DNA from: Limnothrix sp. FACHB-406
Lineage (GTDB): Bacteria; Cyanobacteriota; Cyanobacteriia; CACIAM-69d
Direction of reading: 5' to 3'
Assembly (NCBI RefSeq): GCF_014698235.1
Contig: NZ_JACJSP010000001.1
Coordinates: forward strand, 124,001-188,000
DNA length: 64,000 nt
Part shown: piece by piece, positions 7,909-39,441 of the stretch
Numbering within the stretch: the stretch's first letter is position 1
Layout: each line of letters opens with the position of its first letter
Notes under the pieces: generated by a model
Databases searched by the model: none
Told to the model about the DNA's origin: nothing
The model's input: only the letters and a program-made list of their open reading frames with translations
Made by a program: the position numbers and the translations under genes

Positions 7909-8145
7909 TTAGCACTTATTCAAATCAATGCCAGCTTCCTTAGCAAATGCTTGCAGACCCTTGGTGTTCAGGGTTTTCAGAGCTTTGGTCGAAAGACGCA
8001 ACCGCACCCAACGATTACCTTGGGGCCACCAAATTCGCTTCCATTGCAGATTAACTTCTTGGAGCTTTTTGGTGCGGCGGTGCGAGTGGGAAATGGCGTA
8101 GGCGTTGTTCGCCTTTTTGCCGGTCAGTTGGCAAACACGGGACAT
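7909..8145 (-). CDS. rpmB: 50S ribosomal protein L28
   Basis: Component of the large ribosomal subunit. The 78-residue product begins [20 protein letters not shown], the standard bacterial L28 opening, and continues with the [18 protein letters not shown] pattern typical of cyanobacterial and plastid L28. I chose the ATG at 8145; the frame extends four codons upstream but the family starts at MSR. It is monocistronic by position. A direct repeat of CAGTGCTGAATTTT lies just beyond the stop (7854-7880). Confidence 0.97.
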
Positions 8146-8496
8146 GACGTTCTCCAAGCAGGACGAAAAGGTAAAACTTAGCGGTTGTGTTGATCCCGGC
8201 CCATCAAGCGATCGGGATAAGATTCACCACAACTCCAACCCAAAAGATGCCTCTCCAGGCAATGGCCCGTTGGCAGCATCGGCCATGGCGGTCGGCTTAG
8301 GCGGGCGATCCTTCAGCGGGCGATCGATGACCGATTGAGAGCGCGATTGATCAGTATAACCCAGATGGCAACCCAACCCGGACAGCCCAGCCCGCCAGAA
8401 GCCCATTCCGCCCTTAAGACCAATGCCGATCGACCCGATCGATCGCCTGTGATTAGCAGTCTCTGGCCAGCAGTCTGTGGCTCAGATCAACCCCTC
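8146..8496. other. Spacer between rpmB and the next minus-strand gene
   Basis: About 350 bases, rich in GATCG and with HIP1-like sites. The short frames on either strand have no recognisable protein character. It presumably holds the rpmB promoter; no specific site could be assigned. Confidence 0.5.
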
Positions 8497-9006
8497 CTAG
8501 GGCAGGGAATGTTTCGATCGCCCCCCATGCAAACTACAAGTATCTGACTCGCGAGCCTCGCCCCCGGTCGTTTCCTCGTTGGGCGGTGTGGGGATCAACT
8601 TTTGGCGAGACAGCCGTAGCCGAATTTGATCCAAATAATCCTGCACACAGACGGGCCCCCGTGGCGGCGGCCCATCATCGGGCCAAGAGGCCAAATCCTG
8701 ACAGGGACAGGGCCCCGCCTCCAAGTAGCTGTCATTGATGGGATAGAGCAAACTACACCGCGCGCAGGGCAGCAAGCTCCAATGTCCCGACAATAAATCT
8801 TTCATGGAACAGACCGTGCCCGCCAGGTGATACATCTGGGGTTTTTCGAGAATTTGCCGCCAAAGTTGCTCAAATTCTGCGGAGTAAGCTTCACCGTCAA
8901 TGGTGCGGCGAGTCCCGAGCAAGCGATCGTCGTGACCGCACACCACTTGCTTACCCAACTGCAACCAAAGAGCAAGATATTGTTTGACGCGTTCTTCAGG
9001 AGCCAT
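8497..9006 (-). CDS. Conserved-looking hypothetical protein with cysteine pairs
   Basis: A 169-residue protein from the ATG at 9006 (MAPEERVKQYLALWLQLGKQVV), which reads more naturally than the ATG ten codons upstream. The N-terminal half is helical and hydrophobic/basic (QLWRQILEKPQMYHLAGTVCSMKDLLSG). The centre has CARC (LLPCARCSLLYPIN) and GPCPCQDL, so four cysteines could bind a metal in a small zinc-ribbon-like unit. The C-terminal tail is polar and probably disordered. I do not recognise the family; the neighbours are not informative. Confidence 0.6.
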   Translation of the reverse strand: MAPEERVKQYLALWLQLGKQVVCGHDDRLLGTRRTIDGEAYSAEFEQLWRQILEKPQMYHLAGTVCSMKDLLSGHWSLLPCARCSLLYPINDSYLEAGPCPCQDLASWPDDGPPPRGPVCVQDYLDQIRLRLSRQKLIPTPPNEETTGGEARESDTCSLHGGRSKHSLP

Positions 9007-9454
9007 TTTGGTGTGGAGTCCGGGGGCGAGGGCCAAAGGTTAAAGCACTGATGGCCAGGATTTGGGATTAGAGCTAGCTTCGCTAAACAAAACCAGGTTG
9101 AGAAACTTGACTAAAAATCAGTTCAAAACTGGCTTTAAAAAGCAAACTAAAACTCCAGGTTGCGGGTTTATTTCCCAAGCACCAGCTTCTGGATTAAGAC
9201 AATAACTGGGAGACTGCCTAGGAAAATATCTGGAGGGTATTCGGAGAAACGTCTAAAGAAATAATTGGGGGAAACCTGAGTGAACAGCTCGCATGAAAAC
9301 AGGTTAACCGAAAAGCTTGAATGGAAAATTGAGTTACTAACTATCCTGCTTTCGATCCTAAGCTAAGGTTAGAGGGGTCACCGACAAAGAATCTTGAGCT
9401 TAGATTAAAGTTTTGGACAATTTTTGGACAATATTTAAGGAAATTAAACAGTTT
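9007..9454. other. Spacer, no gene seen
   Basis: About 450 bases between two minus-strand genes, more AT-rich than its surroundings. There are no convincing frames, no tRNA-like arms and no strong hairpin. It presumably contains the promoter of the gene ending at 8497. Confidence 0.5.
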
Positions 9455-10027
9455 TTATCCAGTTGTTAAGGATTGACCGATCGCCCGTAAATTCACTGCA
9501 AAGCCCGCTGTGACCAGATAACAGGCATTGGATCGACTACCCAATTCCCGCACGAGTTTGCCGAGGCGATCGCGAAACAGGCGACCAGCGGGGAAGGCCG
9601 GAACCACACCCCAGCCCGTTTCTTCGGCCACAAAAATACACATGGCTGGCAAGGCCGCACAGGTGGCCAACAGCACTTCACAGGTTTGTTGCCATTCGGG
9701 ATCGGGGCGATCGAGCCAGTTGGCCACCCAAGTTCCCAGTGAATCCACCAGCAAGCAACTATCGGCGGGCGCTTGGCCCAAGGCCGCAGCCAGCTCCAGC
9801 GGCACTTCCCAATTTTGCCAAGTTTCCGGGCGGCGCTGGCGGTGTTGGGCCACACGATCGGCCCACTCTTGATCCTGGGGATCCAAGTACGAGGTAGCCA
9901 CATAGATGACCGATCGCCCCGAGGCCGCGGCCAACCGTTCCGCCCACTCACTCTTGCCCGATCGCGCCGGCCCCGTCACCAGCACCACCCGTGACCATCC
10001 CGATTCTGAAGTCTGAGGCTGAGTCAT
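9455..10027 (-). CDS. cobU: Bifunctional adenosylcobinamide kinase / cobinamide-phosphate guanylyltransferase
   Basis: Phosphorylates adenosylcobinamide and then forms adenosyl-GDP-cobinamide in nucleotide-loop assembly of B12. At 190 residues it has the normal family length. It has the P-loop VTGPARSGKSEWAE (about 17-30), the segment VIYVATSYLDPQDQEWADRVAQHRQRRP containing the family's guanylylated histidine region (HRxRRP), LLVDSLGTWVANWL and VAEETGWGVVPAFPAGRLFRDRLG. All are characteristic of CobU/CobP. The start at 10027 (MTQPQTSESGW) leaves a short arm before the P-loop. It is a functional partner of the CobO at 2.3-2.9 kb although not in one operon. Confidence 0.94.
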   Translation of the reverse strand: MTQPQTSESGWSRVVLVTGPARSGKSEWAERLAAASGRSVIYVATSYLDPQDQEWADRVAQHRQRRPETWQNWEVPLELAAALGQAPADSCLLVDSLGTWVANWLDRPDPEWQQTCEVLLATCAALPAMCIFVAEETGWGVVPAFPAGRLFRDRLGKLVRELGSRSNACYLVTAGFAVNLRAIGQSLTTG

Positions 10028-10078
10028 GATGATGGGTTGCCCAATCGGGGTTACTCAGGGGGCTACTTAAGGGGCTTT

Positions 10079-10162
10079 GCCCGGTTAATTGCCCGGTTAA
10101 TTGCTCAATGAATTGCTCAATGAATTGCTCAACAAACTGCTCAGTAAAGCATTCGGTGAATG
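10079..10162. repeat. 12-bp tandem repeat, seven units
   Basis: Seven consecutive 12-bp units, starting with two GCCCGGTTAATT, then two GCTCAATGAATT and three decayed copies. They fill the spacer between cobU and the membrane-protein gene that ends at 10165. The period is exact although the units diverge. Confidence 0.9.
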
Positions 10163-10164
10163 AG

Positions 10165-10623
10165 CTACTCGCTGACCCGCGACATCAAAAACCAAGGGGC
10201 CAGCCCGATCGCGCTCCCAATGCCCACAGCACTGGCCGCCAACATTTGCCAAAACGATTGCCAGCGCGATCGGCCCGCCACCCGCAATTCCACCTTGGCC
10301 AAAAATTCCGCCGCCAACAACAACATCACATCCGTTGTAATGTCCAACCGCGACAGCACAATCACCACGCCCATTGCTGCCAAAATTGCGCCCCCGAAAG
10401 ACTTGGTGGCCGTTTGAAACCAAGAAAAACGCCCAAACTCTGGCCAAGGCAACTTAAGGGTAAACAGGGCCGCCAAAGCCACGGCCACCAACAAAGCCAC
10501 TCCCGCCACCTCTACCAGCGAGGGGGGCCGGGGCACAGCCAGCAACGCCACCCAACTCAAGGCTAAGTAAACCAACGCCAGGATGAATAGCGATAGTCCG
10601 GTGTAGTTGTTGTATAAGCGCAT
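10165..10623 (-). CDS. Small integral membrane protein, function unknown
   Basis: A 152-residue protein from the ATG at 10623 (MRLYNNYTGLSLFILALVYL); an upstream ATG at 10644 is possible. It has four or five hydrophobic segments: LSLFILALVYLALSWVALL, VAGVALLVAVALAALFTL, FGGAILAAMGVVIVL, VMLLLAAEFLA and AASAVGIGSAIGLAPWFLM. There is no catalytic motif and I do not recognise the family. A 12-bp tandem repeat begins right after its stop. Confidence 0.6.
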   Translation of the reverse strand: MRLYNNYTGLSLFILALVYLALSWVALLAVPRPPSLVEVAGVALLVAVALAALFTLKLPWPEFGRFSWFQTATKSFGGAILAAMGVVIVLSRLDITTDVMLLLAAEFLAKVELRVAGRSRWQSFWQMLAASAVGIGSAIGLAPWFLMSRVSE

Positions 10624-35927: not shown

Positions 35928-36023
35928 CCATCCGGTGGACGAGCGATGACGGACAGGATCGACAGTCAAAATCCAGCGCTACGATACAAGGCAGATCCAC
36001 TCGCAAACTTCCCGACCGCACCC

Positions 36024-36812
36024 ATGCACCTCACTTGGTTTGATAGCAATAGCTGGTTAATTGAACTGGCGGGCAAGCGCATTTTGCTCGATCCCTGGTT
36101 TGTGGGGCCGCTGATGTTTGGGAATGCCGCTTGGTTTTTTAAGGCCACCCATCCCAACCCCCGTCCAATTCCCGCCAATTTGGACTTGGTTTTGCTGTCC
36201 CAAGGGCTGGAGGATCACGCCCATCGCCCCACCTTGGAACAGATCGATCGCACCGTGCCGGTGTTGGGATCGCCCAGCGCGGCCAAGGTCGCCGAACAGT
36301 TGGGATTCCAAACGGCGATCGCCCTTGATCACGGTCAAACTTGGACGCTGGATCAACAGGTGGCCATCCGCGCCACCACCGGCTCCCCTACGGGGCCCAA
36401 AACCCTAGAAAACGGCTACATTCTGCGGGCGATCGCGGGGCCCGAAACTGGCGAAAGTCTTTACTATGAACCCCACGGCTATCACCCGGCGGAGTTGAGC
36501 GAGTTGGGGCCGGTGGATGTGACCCTTTGCCCGCTGATGGATCTATCGATCGGGGGATTCTTGCCGATTATTCAGGGAACCAACAGCGCCTTGAAGCTGG
36601 CAACCATGCTGCGGCCCCAAGTGATGTTACCGACGGCGGCGGCGGGCGATGTGCAATACGAAGGCCTGCTGGTGTCCCTGTTGCGGGCGAAGGGCAATGC
36701 TGCCGAGCTTCAGACCCAATTGCAGGGAGCAGGGTTGGCAGCCCAAATCCTGGAACCCAAACCGGGCGATCGCCTAGCCATGCCCCTCAAGAAGACCTCA
36801 GCAATCGCCTAG
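36024..36812 (+). CDS. MBL-fold protein with atypical metal motif
   Basis: A 262-residue metallo-beta-lactamase-fold protein starting MHLTWFDSNSWLIELAGKRIL (ATG at 36024; an ATG at 35946 would add 26 residues without fold character). The usual HxHxDH is replaced by S-Q-G-L-E-D-H-A-H: the first two histidines are missing, but the D-H pair and a further H are kept. Later conserved positions include EPHGYHP and PTAAAGDVQYEG. I recall the same SQxLxDHxH pattern in plant and cyanobacterial homologues, so this looks like a family feature and not decay. Substrate unknown. Its 3' end overlaps the convergent CHAT-CHASE2 gene by 26 bases. Confidence 0.8.
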   Translation: MHLTWFDSNSWLIELAGKRILLDPWFVGPLMFGNAAWFFKATHPNPRPIPANLDLVLLSQGLEDHAHRPTLEQIDRTVPVLGSPSAAKVAEQLGFQTAIALDHGQTWTLDQQVAIRATTGSPTGPKTLENGYILRAIAGPETGESLYYEPHGYHPAELSELGPVDVTLCPLMDLSIGGFLPIIQGTNSALKLATMLRPQVMLPTAAAGDVQYEGLLVSLLRAKGNAAELQTQLQGAGLAAQILEPKPGDRLAMPLKKTSAIA

Positions 36813-39441
36813 GGAGTCGCTGCACCAGGCCAAGCCATCGGGAGAACTGGGAACGGCCCTTTCTCCCGGGAACTGGCAACAACACCAGACCCATGGCCAC
36901 CATGGGCGACACCACCGGTAACCACCAAGCCGCCCAAAAAAAACTGATCATCCCGATCGCCCCCACCGCCAGCGAGCCGATCGCCCCGATCCAAAGTCGA
37001 TCACACCAACGAGGCTGCGGGTTCCTTGCCTGCCCAACCGCCAACAGCCCTGCCCCAAGACCCGCCCAAAGCAAAATCCACCCCAACTTGTGCGGCCAAG
37101 CGATCGCCTGGAGCAGAGGGCGATTGTCCAGCACCGCGCTTATCAGTTGGCTGATGCCGTGAGCCTGAATCTCCAAGCCCGGAATCTCCTGCCCACCCGG
37201 TAGTTTCCACCGATCCTCAGAGCTGGCTTGGATATTACCAATTAATACGATCGGGTTGGGTTGACCAGTCCAAGGAATTCGATCGGTACTTTGCAGCACC
37301 TCTCGCAGGGGCAAACGCACCCAATCCGCCCGCCGAGGAGCCAACAGCAGTTGATTACCTTGGTCATCAAACCACCCATACCCCCCCGCTCCGGCGGTGA
37401 TTTGGGGAATCGTAACGGAACCATACCGCCATCGATCGCCCACGGATTGAAACGCCACCCTCTGTTGCTTCAGGTAATCATCCACCAACAGAGCACTCAG
37501 CCCATAGGTAGCGTGACAAGCTTGGCTGGACTGGGGAACCGCCATGGCCAAAAGTTGCCGTCGCACCACCCTTTTTGAATCACTGGCTTGGTCAGAAAAA
37601 GCCACCCGATCGCGCGTCAAGCCCACTGGGGCCGGAATTTCCGAAGTATCTTCCGTTGGGTCAGCTAATTTGCACAGACCCACCACCCGAGAATTCGACC
37701 AGAGGCGCTTTTGCCAAGCGGAGGTCAGCGGCCAGGGGTAATAAATATCCACTCCAATGACGCTGGGTTTCAGGGTGGCCAGTCGCTCCTGAAGCTTGGC
37801 CAAGGCCTCCGGAGCCAAGGAATTTAACCCGCCAGCTGCCGTTGGAATCCGTCGCCAACCTTGACGATCTTGATAAGCCACGTCATTTTCATCAATCGTG
37901 ACTAGCAAAATACGTTGATCTTGTAATTCCAACGGCCGCTGCTGCAACATTGCGTCATAAACCCAAAATTCCGGGGTCTGGATGATGCCGCCTAGGCCAA
38001 TGGTGATCCCTGTGGCTAAAAGGGACTGCCCGACTAGTTGCCACGGTTTCGGACTAACTTTGGGGCTAACTTTCGGGCTAATTTGCTGATTGTTTTCTGG
38101 ACGCTGATTGTTTTCTGGACTCAGTGCCTGATTTAGTTTTTGATTTAATTTCTGATTTGATTCCTGACTAGATTTCTGACTGATTTCCTGATCTAATTCC
38201 TGGCTTGATTTCTGATTGATTTCCTGACTGATTTCTTGACCGGGTTCCTGGCTGAATTTCTGGATTGGATCCTGCCTCAGTGGCCGATCGCTGCTAGGCC
38301 GAGCTGCACTGGGGCCAACGGGTTCAATCCAGCTTTGGAAATCAGCTTCCGAGTGGGAGCGATCGGGCCAAGTAGGCAAATCTAACAGGGGATGGTGAAA
38401 GACCAGCGGCAACCAATCGGCCCTTGGATATTGGGCGCTGGAGCGTTGGAGCGATCGACGGGCTTCGTACAGAGATAGGGGCAGCGACCGCGATTGGGCG
38501 TAGTGAGTCAGAAAGTCCTTGAGGAAATGTTGAGCGACTAGATCGGGAACCGAAGCCCGCATCACAATGGCGGCCGGTAGGTGCGATCGATGCAGTGCTT
38601 CCGCCAAGTCCACGCTGTGGCAACAGTTAAAAATCGCCAGTTGCAAACCCTGCTGAACTGCGCCTTCCAGGGCATGGCTGAAGTTTTCTACGGAAATGTT
38701 GTTCCGCAGGTTAAGGCCAATCTGACCCGATCGGCTGCTAGTTCCGGGATAGCCATGGCCCGCAAAGACCAGCACTTGCGGTTGGTTATCGCGCAGGGCA
38801 TCAAAAAACTGCTCAGGAGTCGGAGCGTCCAGCAACTGCACATTCGCCAGCCCTGCTTGGCTCAGTTGTTGAAGGGCCTGATGATCGGGATCCAGGTCTA
38901 AATCCTCCCGATCGCCCAAAACCGCCAAAATCCGGACCAAGCCCCTAGGGGCCGATCGCGCCTGAATGGGTGGTGTTTTGCCACTGGTTGGACAACAGCC
39001 CCAGGCAAGCCGGTGACTTTTCAGGGGTTTCCATTCGTCCCAAGGCAGCCTTGGCACATGGCGATCGTCCGTGGCGATCGACAGCCACAGATCATCATCG
39101 GGATTGCTAAATCGCAGAATTTCATGGGTAATTTCCCGAAAGCTTTCCCCCTCCAACCAGTTGTTAAACAGAGTTTGCAGGCGATCGGCCGCGAGTTGGC
39201 ACTGTTGACGATGCAAAGAAAGGGGCAACTGTCGCTGAACGCCCTTCACCTTAATTCGCAGGTTGGGATAACTCGCCCACAAGTCCCAAAATTCTGTGGC
39301 CACTTGGACCAATTCCGGTGCGGGCGGCAGGCGAGTATCGCAAGTTTGTTGGTGATGGGGGCTGCGCCACAAGTCCAAGCGGGCCAACAGTCCCTCCGTT
39401 GCCAGGCAACCATGAAGCGAGAGTTTTACCCGAAAGGTCAT
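36787..39441 (-). CDS. CHAT-domain caspase-like protease fused to CHASE2 membrane sensor
   Basis: An 884-residue protein. The N-terminal 1-120 region is followed by a CHAT (caspase-like, HetF-associated) domain at about 165-350 with a candidate His-Cys dyad: H229 in VFAGHGYPG and C274 in AIFNCCHSVDL. A polar linker at 390-466 consists largely of tetrapeptides (SQEP, GQEI, SQEI, NQKS and so on). Then come TM1 (about 468-487), a CHASE2 extracytoplasmic sensor (about 490-770, including VTIDENDVAYQDRQGW and GVDIYYPW), two or three C-terminal membrane helices (about 775-850) and a basic tail. I infer that a periplasmic signal bound by CHASE2 gates the cytoplasmic protease. A substrate gene is not evident nearby. 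CHAT and CHASE2 are each common in cyanobacteria; here they sit in one chain. Confidence 0.88.
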   Translation of the reverse strand: MTFRVKLSLHGCLATEGLLARLDLWRSPHHQQTCDTRLPPAPELVQVATEFWDLWASYPNLRIKVKGVQRQLPLSLHRQQCQLAADRLQTLFNNWLEGESFREITHEILRFSNPDDDLWLSIATDDRHVPRLPWDEWKPLKSHRLAWGCCPTSGKTPPIQARSAPRGLVRILAVLGDREDLDLDPDHQALQQLSQAGLANVQLLDAPTPEQFFDALRDNQPQVLVFAGHGYPGTSSRSGQIGLNLRNNISVENFSHALEGAVQQGLQLAIFNCCHSVDLAEALHRSHLPAAIVMRASVPDLVAQHFLKDFLTHYAQSRSLPLSLYEARRSLQRSSAQYPRADWLPLVFHHPLLDLPTWPDRSHSEADFQSWIEPVGPSAARPSSDRPLRQDPIQKFSQEPGQEISQEINQKSSQELDQEISQKSSQESNQKLNQKLNQALSPENNQRPENNQQISPKVSPKVSPKPWQLVGQSLLATGITIGLGGIIQTPEFWVYDAMLQQRPLELQDQRILLVTIDENDVAYQDRQGWRRIPTAAGGLNSLAPEALAKLQERLATLKPSVIGVDIYYPWPLTSAWQKRLWSNSRVVGLCKLADPTEDTSEIPAPVGLTRDRVAFSDQASDSKRVVRRQLLAMAVPQSSQACHATYGLSALLVDDYLKQQRVAFQSVGDRWRYGSVTIPQITAGAGGYGWFDDQGNQLLLAPRRADWVRLPLREVLQSTDRIPWTGQPNPIVLIGNIQASSEDRWKLPGGQEIPGLEIQAHGISQLISAVLDNRPLLQAIAWPHKLGWILLWAGLGAGLLAVGQARNPQPRWCDRLWIGAIGSLAVGAIGMISFFWAAWWLPVVSPMVAMGLVLLPVPGRKGRSQFSRWLGLVQRLPRRLLRSS
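38122..38265. repeat. 12-bp tandem repeat coding for tetrapeptide linker
   Basis: Twelve in-frame 12-bp units inside the CHAT-CHASE2 gene encode residues 393-440 as four-residue repeats of the form (S/N/D/G)-Q-(E/K)-x. The DNA theme (TTTCTGATTGAT, TTTCTGGATTGG) matches the spacer repeat at 13188-13271. Confidence 0.9.

Follow-up and report, generated by a model that had tools for sequence, protein, structure and literature searches.

A diverged cyanobacterial CHAT–CHASE2 protein without adjoining partner genes, and DUF1822 as a candidate substrate of its family

The window, by which we mean the whole 64,000-nucleotide stretch of DNA that was analysed, encodes on its reverse strand an 884-residue protein in which a caspase-like CHAT domain, a tetrapeptide-repeat linker and a CHASE2 domain are joined in one chain. 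The preliminary description had placed this chain at exactly the position on which the open reading frame and the Pfam matches agree, and its features are as follows.

36787–39441, reverse strand: CHAT–CHASE2 protein P0001, 884 amino acids (open reading frame with ATG start, and Pfam)
38947–39441, reverse strand: N-terminal module, residues 1–165 (about 165 residues), kept in CHAT–CHASE2 relatives (BLAST and alignment coverage)
38413–38883, reverse strand: core of the CHAT (caspase-like) domain, residues 187–343 (Pfam PF12770, E 6.1e-12)
38755–38757, reverse strand: candidate catalytic H229, codon CAT (48/48 relatives; aligns with the CHAT histidine)
38620–38622, reverse strand: candidate catalytic C274, codon TGC, in the motif FNCCHSVD (48/48 relatives)
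38053–38274, reverse strand: linker of tetrapeptide repeats rich in Q, S and N (also K), residues ~390–463 (12-bp tandem repeats)
37981–38037, reverse strand: membrane segment N-terminal of CHASE2, residues 469–487 (hydropathy)
37051–37998, reverse strand: CHASE2 sensor domain, residues 482–797 (Pfam PF05226, E 4.9e-34)
37030–37089, reverse strand: membrane segment, residues about 785–804 (hydropathy)
36865–36999, reverse strand: two more membrane segments, residues 815–859, followed by a positively charged tail (hydropathy and sequence)

Both domain matches lie above the curated Pfam cut-offs, with CHASE2 scoring 118.5 bits against a cut-off of 26.3. The CHAT region also matches PDB entry 8tl0, at E 0.0011 as a single sequence and, as the sole match, at E 0.11 with a family profile; a single-sequence AlphaFold2 model of residues 1–374 had a mean pLDDT of 34.5. 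The anatomy in the preliminary description holds with three amendments. The linker is indeed built of tetrapeptides with a 12-bp period, and its tract is longer than the 48 residues that had been given; the C-terminal membrane helices are present, with one further segment ahead of CHASE2 that had been overlooked; and the conserved first module had been left out altogether. The position of this module matches that of the published EACC2 constant module, which makes it a candidate EACC2 domain.

The C-terminus of the protein is rich in arginine and lysine, and when this positively charged tail is taken as inside, the CHAT domain is predicted to be cytoplasmic and CHASE2 periplasmic. The order of CHAT domain, linker, membrane segment, CHASE2, membrane segments and charged tail fits the earlier proposal that a signal from outside the cytoplasm gates the protease, and this is the natural reading of the arrangement. 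The 3' end of the gene overlaps that of a convergent gene for a beta-lactamase-superfamily hydrolase (Lactamase_B_3; 35946–36812) by 26 bp (36787–36812), and the overlap recurs in the nearest relative. A promoter and terminator scan gave no signal exceeding that of shuffled sequences.

To examine the putative active site, we aligned the protein with 48 CHAT–CHASE2 relatives that are full-length or nearly so. H229 and C274 are invariant (48/48) and align with the His-Gly and Ser-Ala-Cys residues of ordinary CHAT proteins of the same genome. The preliminary description had named this dyad and had been prepared to give up its reading if the two residues were not conserved among homologues; they are. 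The position preceding C274 is a serine in 45 of the 48, which is why we take C274, and not C273, to be the catalytic candidate. The surroundings of the cysteine are less constant: most relatives read FNSCDGLG, against FNCCHSVD in the window protein and FNCCNSID in its orthologue from genome G386 of the same genus, so that residues that are near-invariant after the cysteine in relatives (D in 44/48, G in 46/48) are altered in the window protein. Both dyad residues are nevertheless retained in all three members of the genus. Metacaspases carry the motif DxCHSG. The genus-specific CCHS or CCNS (38617–38622 in the window; locus L106 in G386) looks more like that motif than like the one of the CHAT–CHASE2 relatives, perhaps by chance.

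The preliminary description had taken the fusion to be unusual, a view that the literature does not bear out. Cyanobacterial caspase homologues with CHASE2 were listed as early as 2010 and 2012 (PMC2853523, PMC3501461), and a constant module of EACC2 and caspase with variable C-terminal domains, CHASE2 among them, was described by Kaur et al. (eLife 2021, PMC8195603). In that survey a majority, though not all, of the EACC2-caspase genes have an ECF sigma and a DUF1822 gene, or else a TRADD-N gene, as neighbours, and activation by autopeptidase cleavage with a transcriptional output was proposed (PMC8195603). The window protein shares with the published EACC2-caspase-CHASE2 proteins an N-terminal module, a caspase-like CHAT domain with a His-Cys dyad, and C-terminal CHASE2 with membrane helices, and most of its relatives have the published sigma-like and DUF1822 neighbours. 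It differs from them in its altered cysteine motif, its long repetitive linker and the absence of an adjoining sigma or DUF1822 gene.

Within the cyanobacterial CHAT–CHASE2 family, the window copy is a diverged member that is confined to its genus and orphaned from the family's operon. In a midpoint-rooted tree, in which the position of a branch says nothing about the oldest lineage, the window copy and its two genus relatives group on a long branch with full support, separate from the 46 others. Six genomes of its family were examined, and the orphan gene is present in three, all of this genus; its location in G386 differs from that in the other two. A search for related loci returned a single relative, in a Limnothrix metagenome-assembled genome (locus L048), that is 86% identical. 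Between the two genes dN/dS is about 0.21 in each of the two domains, CHAT and CHASE2, against 0.33 in the linker, and the low domain values argue that the window gene is real. The L048 copy (8001–10600) has a linker 18 residues shorter and carries a frameshift near residue 105 that splits it into open reading frames of 139 and 738 codons, its frame being otherwise open and conserved; this may be an assembly error in a draft, or the gene may be dispensable there. The G386 orthologue is intact at 920 residues. Most CHAT–CHASE2 relatives are only ~770–800 residues long, and their linkers are therefore much shorter.

The neighbourhoods of the relatives provide a candidate for what the protease might cut. 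Among 46 canonical CHAT–CHASE2 loci, from which the genus members were left out, DUF1822 lies directly upstream in 37 and is not adjacent in 9, a sigma-like gene lies upstream in 25, DUF928 lies downstream in 37, and a CHAT-TPR gene is nearby in 24. We then scored linkage across 20 cyanobacterial genomes. The expected numbers are those for genes placed at random, and the counts are not independent, as the genomes are related. Of 71 sigma-like genes, found with profiles A2 and A3 built for this analysis, 60 are followed immediately by DUF1822 (~0.03 expected), with or without a CHAT gene present. DUF928 lies within 3 kb and on the same strand in 81 of 122 CHASE2 genes (0.75 expected; for example G000:C2:190157-191798), and most CHASE2 genes that have it are without DUF1822 nearby (57 versus 21). 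The CHAT–CHASE2 protein thus joins two linked pairs, sigma-like with DUF1822 and CHASE2 with DUF928. As DUF928 also adjoins CHASE2 cyclases that have no CHAT domain, its role may be that of a periplasmic partner to CHASE2 domains in general.

DUF1822, for its part, may be a family of anti-sigma factors. The sigma-like genes beside it fall into two groups: in group b, Sigma70_r4 is supported by Pfam, and in group a (SIGa) that support is weak (matches in 3 of the 15 members, the best at E 1.4e-4), with ECF sigma matches in the PDB only at E 0.16–0.23. Within DUF1822 an arginine is kept in 39 of 42 sequences and is followed by a variable stretch, mostly of 5–21 residues, and then by a conserved R-x-K; we speculate that this arginine, ahead of the variable stretch, is a possible cut site. 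The papers that we searched report no biochemistry of either DUF1822 or DUF928.

At the window locus itself no DUF1822, sigma-like or DUF928 gene adjoins the CHAT–CHASE2 gene, and the earlier remark that no obvious substrate gene lies beside it is accurate. The neighbours scanned encode an alanine racemase, a metal hydrolase and a HEAT protein. The neighbours that are usual, though not universal, for EACC2 proteins (ECF sigma with DUF1822) are thus absent here, and DUF1822 is encoded on other contigs, in two sigma-DUF1822 pairs (G000:C24:65090-67392 and G000:C19:84090-85417), one of which is followed by TPS-exoprotein genes. The genome has three DUF928 genes, one of them beside a CHASE2 cyclase. 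In G386, a DUF928 gene (L106:13533-14441) lies 2.5 kb from the orphan CHAT–CHASE2 gene on the opposite strand, possibly as a remnant of the old operon.

The gene order of sigma, DUF1822 and CHAT–CHASE2 suggests the logic of Craspase with a membrane sensor as the trigger. Craspase contains the CHAT protease Csx29, which cleaves Csx30, an inhibitor of CASP-sigma (PMC10028731), and the Csx29-Csx30 model suggests by analogy that DUF1822 is the protease substrate. In our preferred reading, CHASE2 would face the periplasm and the N-terminal CHAT protease the cytoplasm. A signal from the periplasm, in whose handling the secreted DUF928 protein probably takes part in most relatives, would alter the CHASE2 and membrane part of the protein and so license the H229/C274 dyad to cut a cytoplasmic regulator. 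Relatives offer DUF1822 as the best candidate for that regulator, its gene lying immediately upstream and usually right after the sigma-like gene; as a putative anti-sigma factor, DUF1822 would free the sigma factor on being cleaved. The window copy would have to work in trans, with one of the two sigma-DUF1822 pairs elsewhere in the genome, or both, as its target. We put the probability of this full mechanism at roughly 0.4. Counted against it are the lack of adjoining partners, the altered cysteine motif, the frameshift in L048, the weak sigma assignment of SIGa and the canonical loci in which DUF1822 is missing.

Several known systems help to place the protein. As in Craspase, the CHAT protease of the relatives is linked to a sigma-like gene, with a third protein encoded between them; unlike in Craspase, where RNA is the trigger, the predicted trigger is a membrane sensor. 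The window protein gave no TPR match, and the scanned neighbours include no CRISPR gene, which sets it apart from Csx29, a TPR-CHAT protein bound to a type III-E CRISPR effector. HetF, a cyanobacterial CHAT protein that acts in division and heterocyst formation (PMC8406250), is likewise a membrane-anchored putative protease, but it carries TPR where the window protein carries CHASE2. We rejected an identity with HetF, as the window protein scores 15.1 bits against a cut-off of 1200 for NCBIfam NF045509; a separate HetF-like gene of the same genome reaches 593 bits, also under that cut-off. The CHASE2 adenylate and diguanylate cyclases of the genome share the succession of CHASE2 and membrane helices, one of them with DUF928 next door, and differ in having a C-terminal cyclase output in place of an N-terminal protease.

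It is possible, if somewhat less likely than our preferred reading, that the window copy is a sensor-gated protease that was repurposed after leaving the sigma-DUF1822 operon and now cuts some other cytoplasmic or membrane protein. Its long separate branch, its altered cysteine motif, the want of adjoining partner genes, its different location in G386 and its confinement to one genus of the family among the genomes examined would all fit such a history. However, the same genomes retain sigma-DUF1822 pairs, so that the ancestral substrate is still available. The long flexible linker between protease and membrane segment invites another thought, that of a receptor whose CHAT domain cuts its own linker and releases a soluble fragment, as would suit the activation by autopeptidase cleavage that has been suggested, in general terms, for the family (Kaur et al. 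2021, PMC8195603). This seems unlikely, as the repeats differ in number and sequence among near relatives with no conserved site, and as most relatives have so much less linker to cut.

CHAT proteases act in defence and cell-death systems, and the preliminary description had hinted at such a role by analogy with gasdermins and Craspase; it finds no support at this locus. Although the 2021 survey counts the EACC2-caspase family among predicted conflict systems (PMC8195603), no defence gene lies beside the window gene among the neighbours scanned, and PADLOC returns a weak BovA match (E 0.0086) and nothing more; on these grounds we set aside a defence or programmed-cell-death effector as very improbable. 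We give scarcely any credence to an inactive pseudo-protease that keeps its sensor and binding functions only. The altered residues after the cysteine, a weak CHAT score and the frameshifted nearest relative could be read that way, but the dyad is intact throughout the genus and the CHAT domain has a dN/dS of 0.21.

The preliminary interpretation was thus right in outline, if not in the rarity of the fusion or in its hint of defence, and its suggestion that substrates be sought among the neighbours of CHAT–CHASE2 homologues proved fruitful, as it leads to DUF1822, encoded between the sigma-like and CHAT–CHASE2 genes. The substrate hypothesis is now sharper than in that description and is drawn from comparative evidence. 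To our knowledge, little has been learnt of CHASE2 ligands, or of CHASE2 outputs beyond kinases and cyclases, and few bacterial CHAT proteases have an assigned substrate. The linkage counts single out DUF1822 as a candidate substrate and DUF928 as a candidate sensor partner, both of them function-unassigned domains that are common in cyanobacteria. We tentatively suggest, as something possible rather than probable, that cyanobacteria possess a widespread, CRISPR-independent counterpart of Craspase, in which a periplasm-facing CHASE2/DUF928 sensor would activate CHAT to cut the putative anti-sigma factor DUF1822 and so free a dedicated sigma factor, with the window copy working in trans. If this is true, Craspase logic would exist also outside CRISPR, envelope signals would reach transcription via a cytoplasmic caspase-like enzyme, and caspase-like proteolysis would be a commonplace way for the phylum to pass signals from the envelope to sigma factors.
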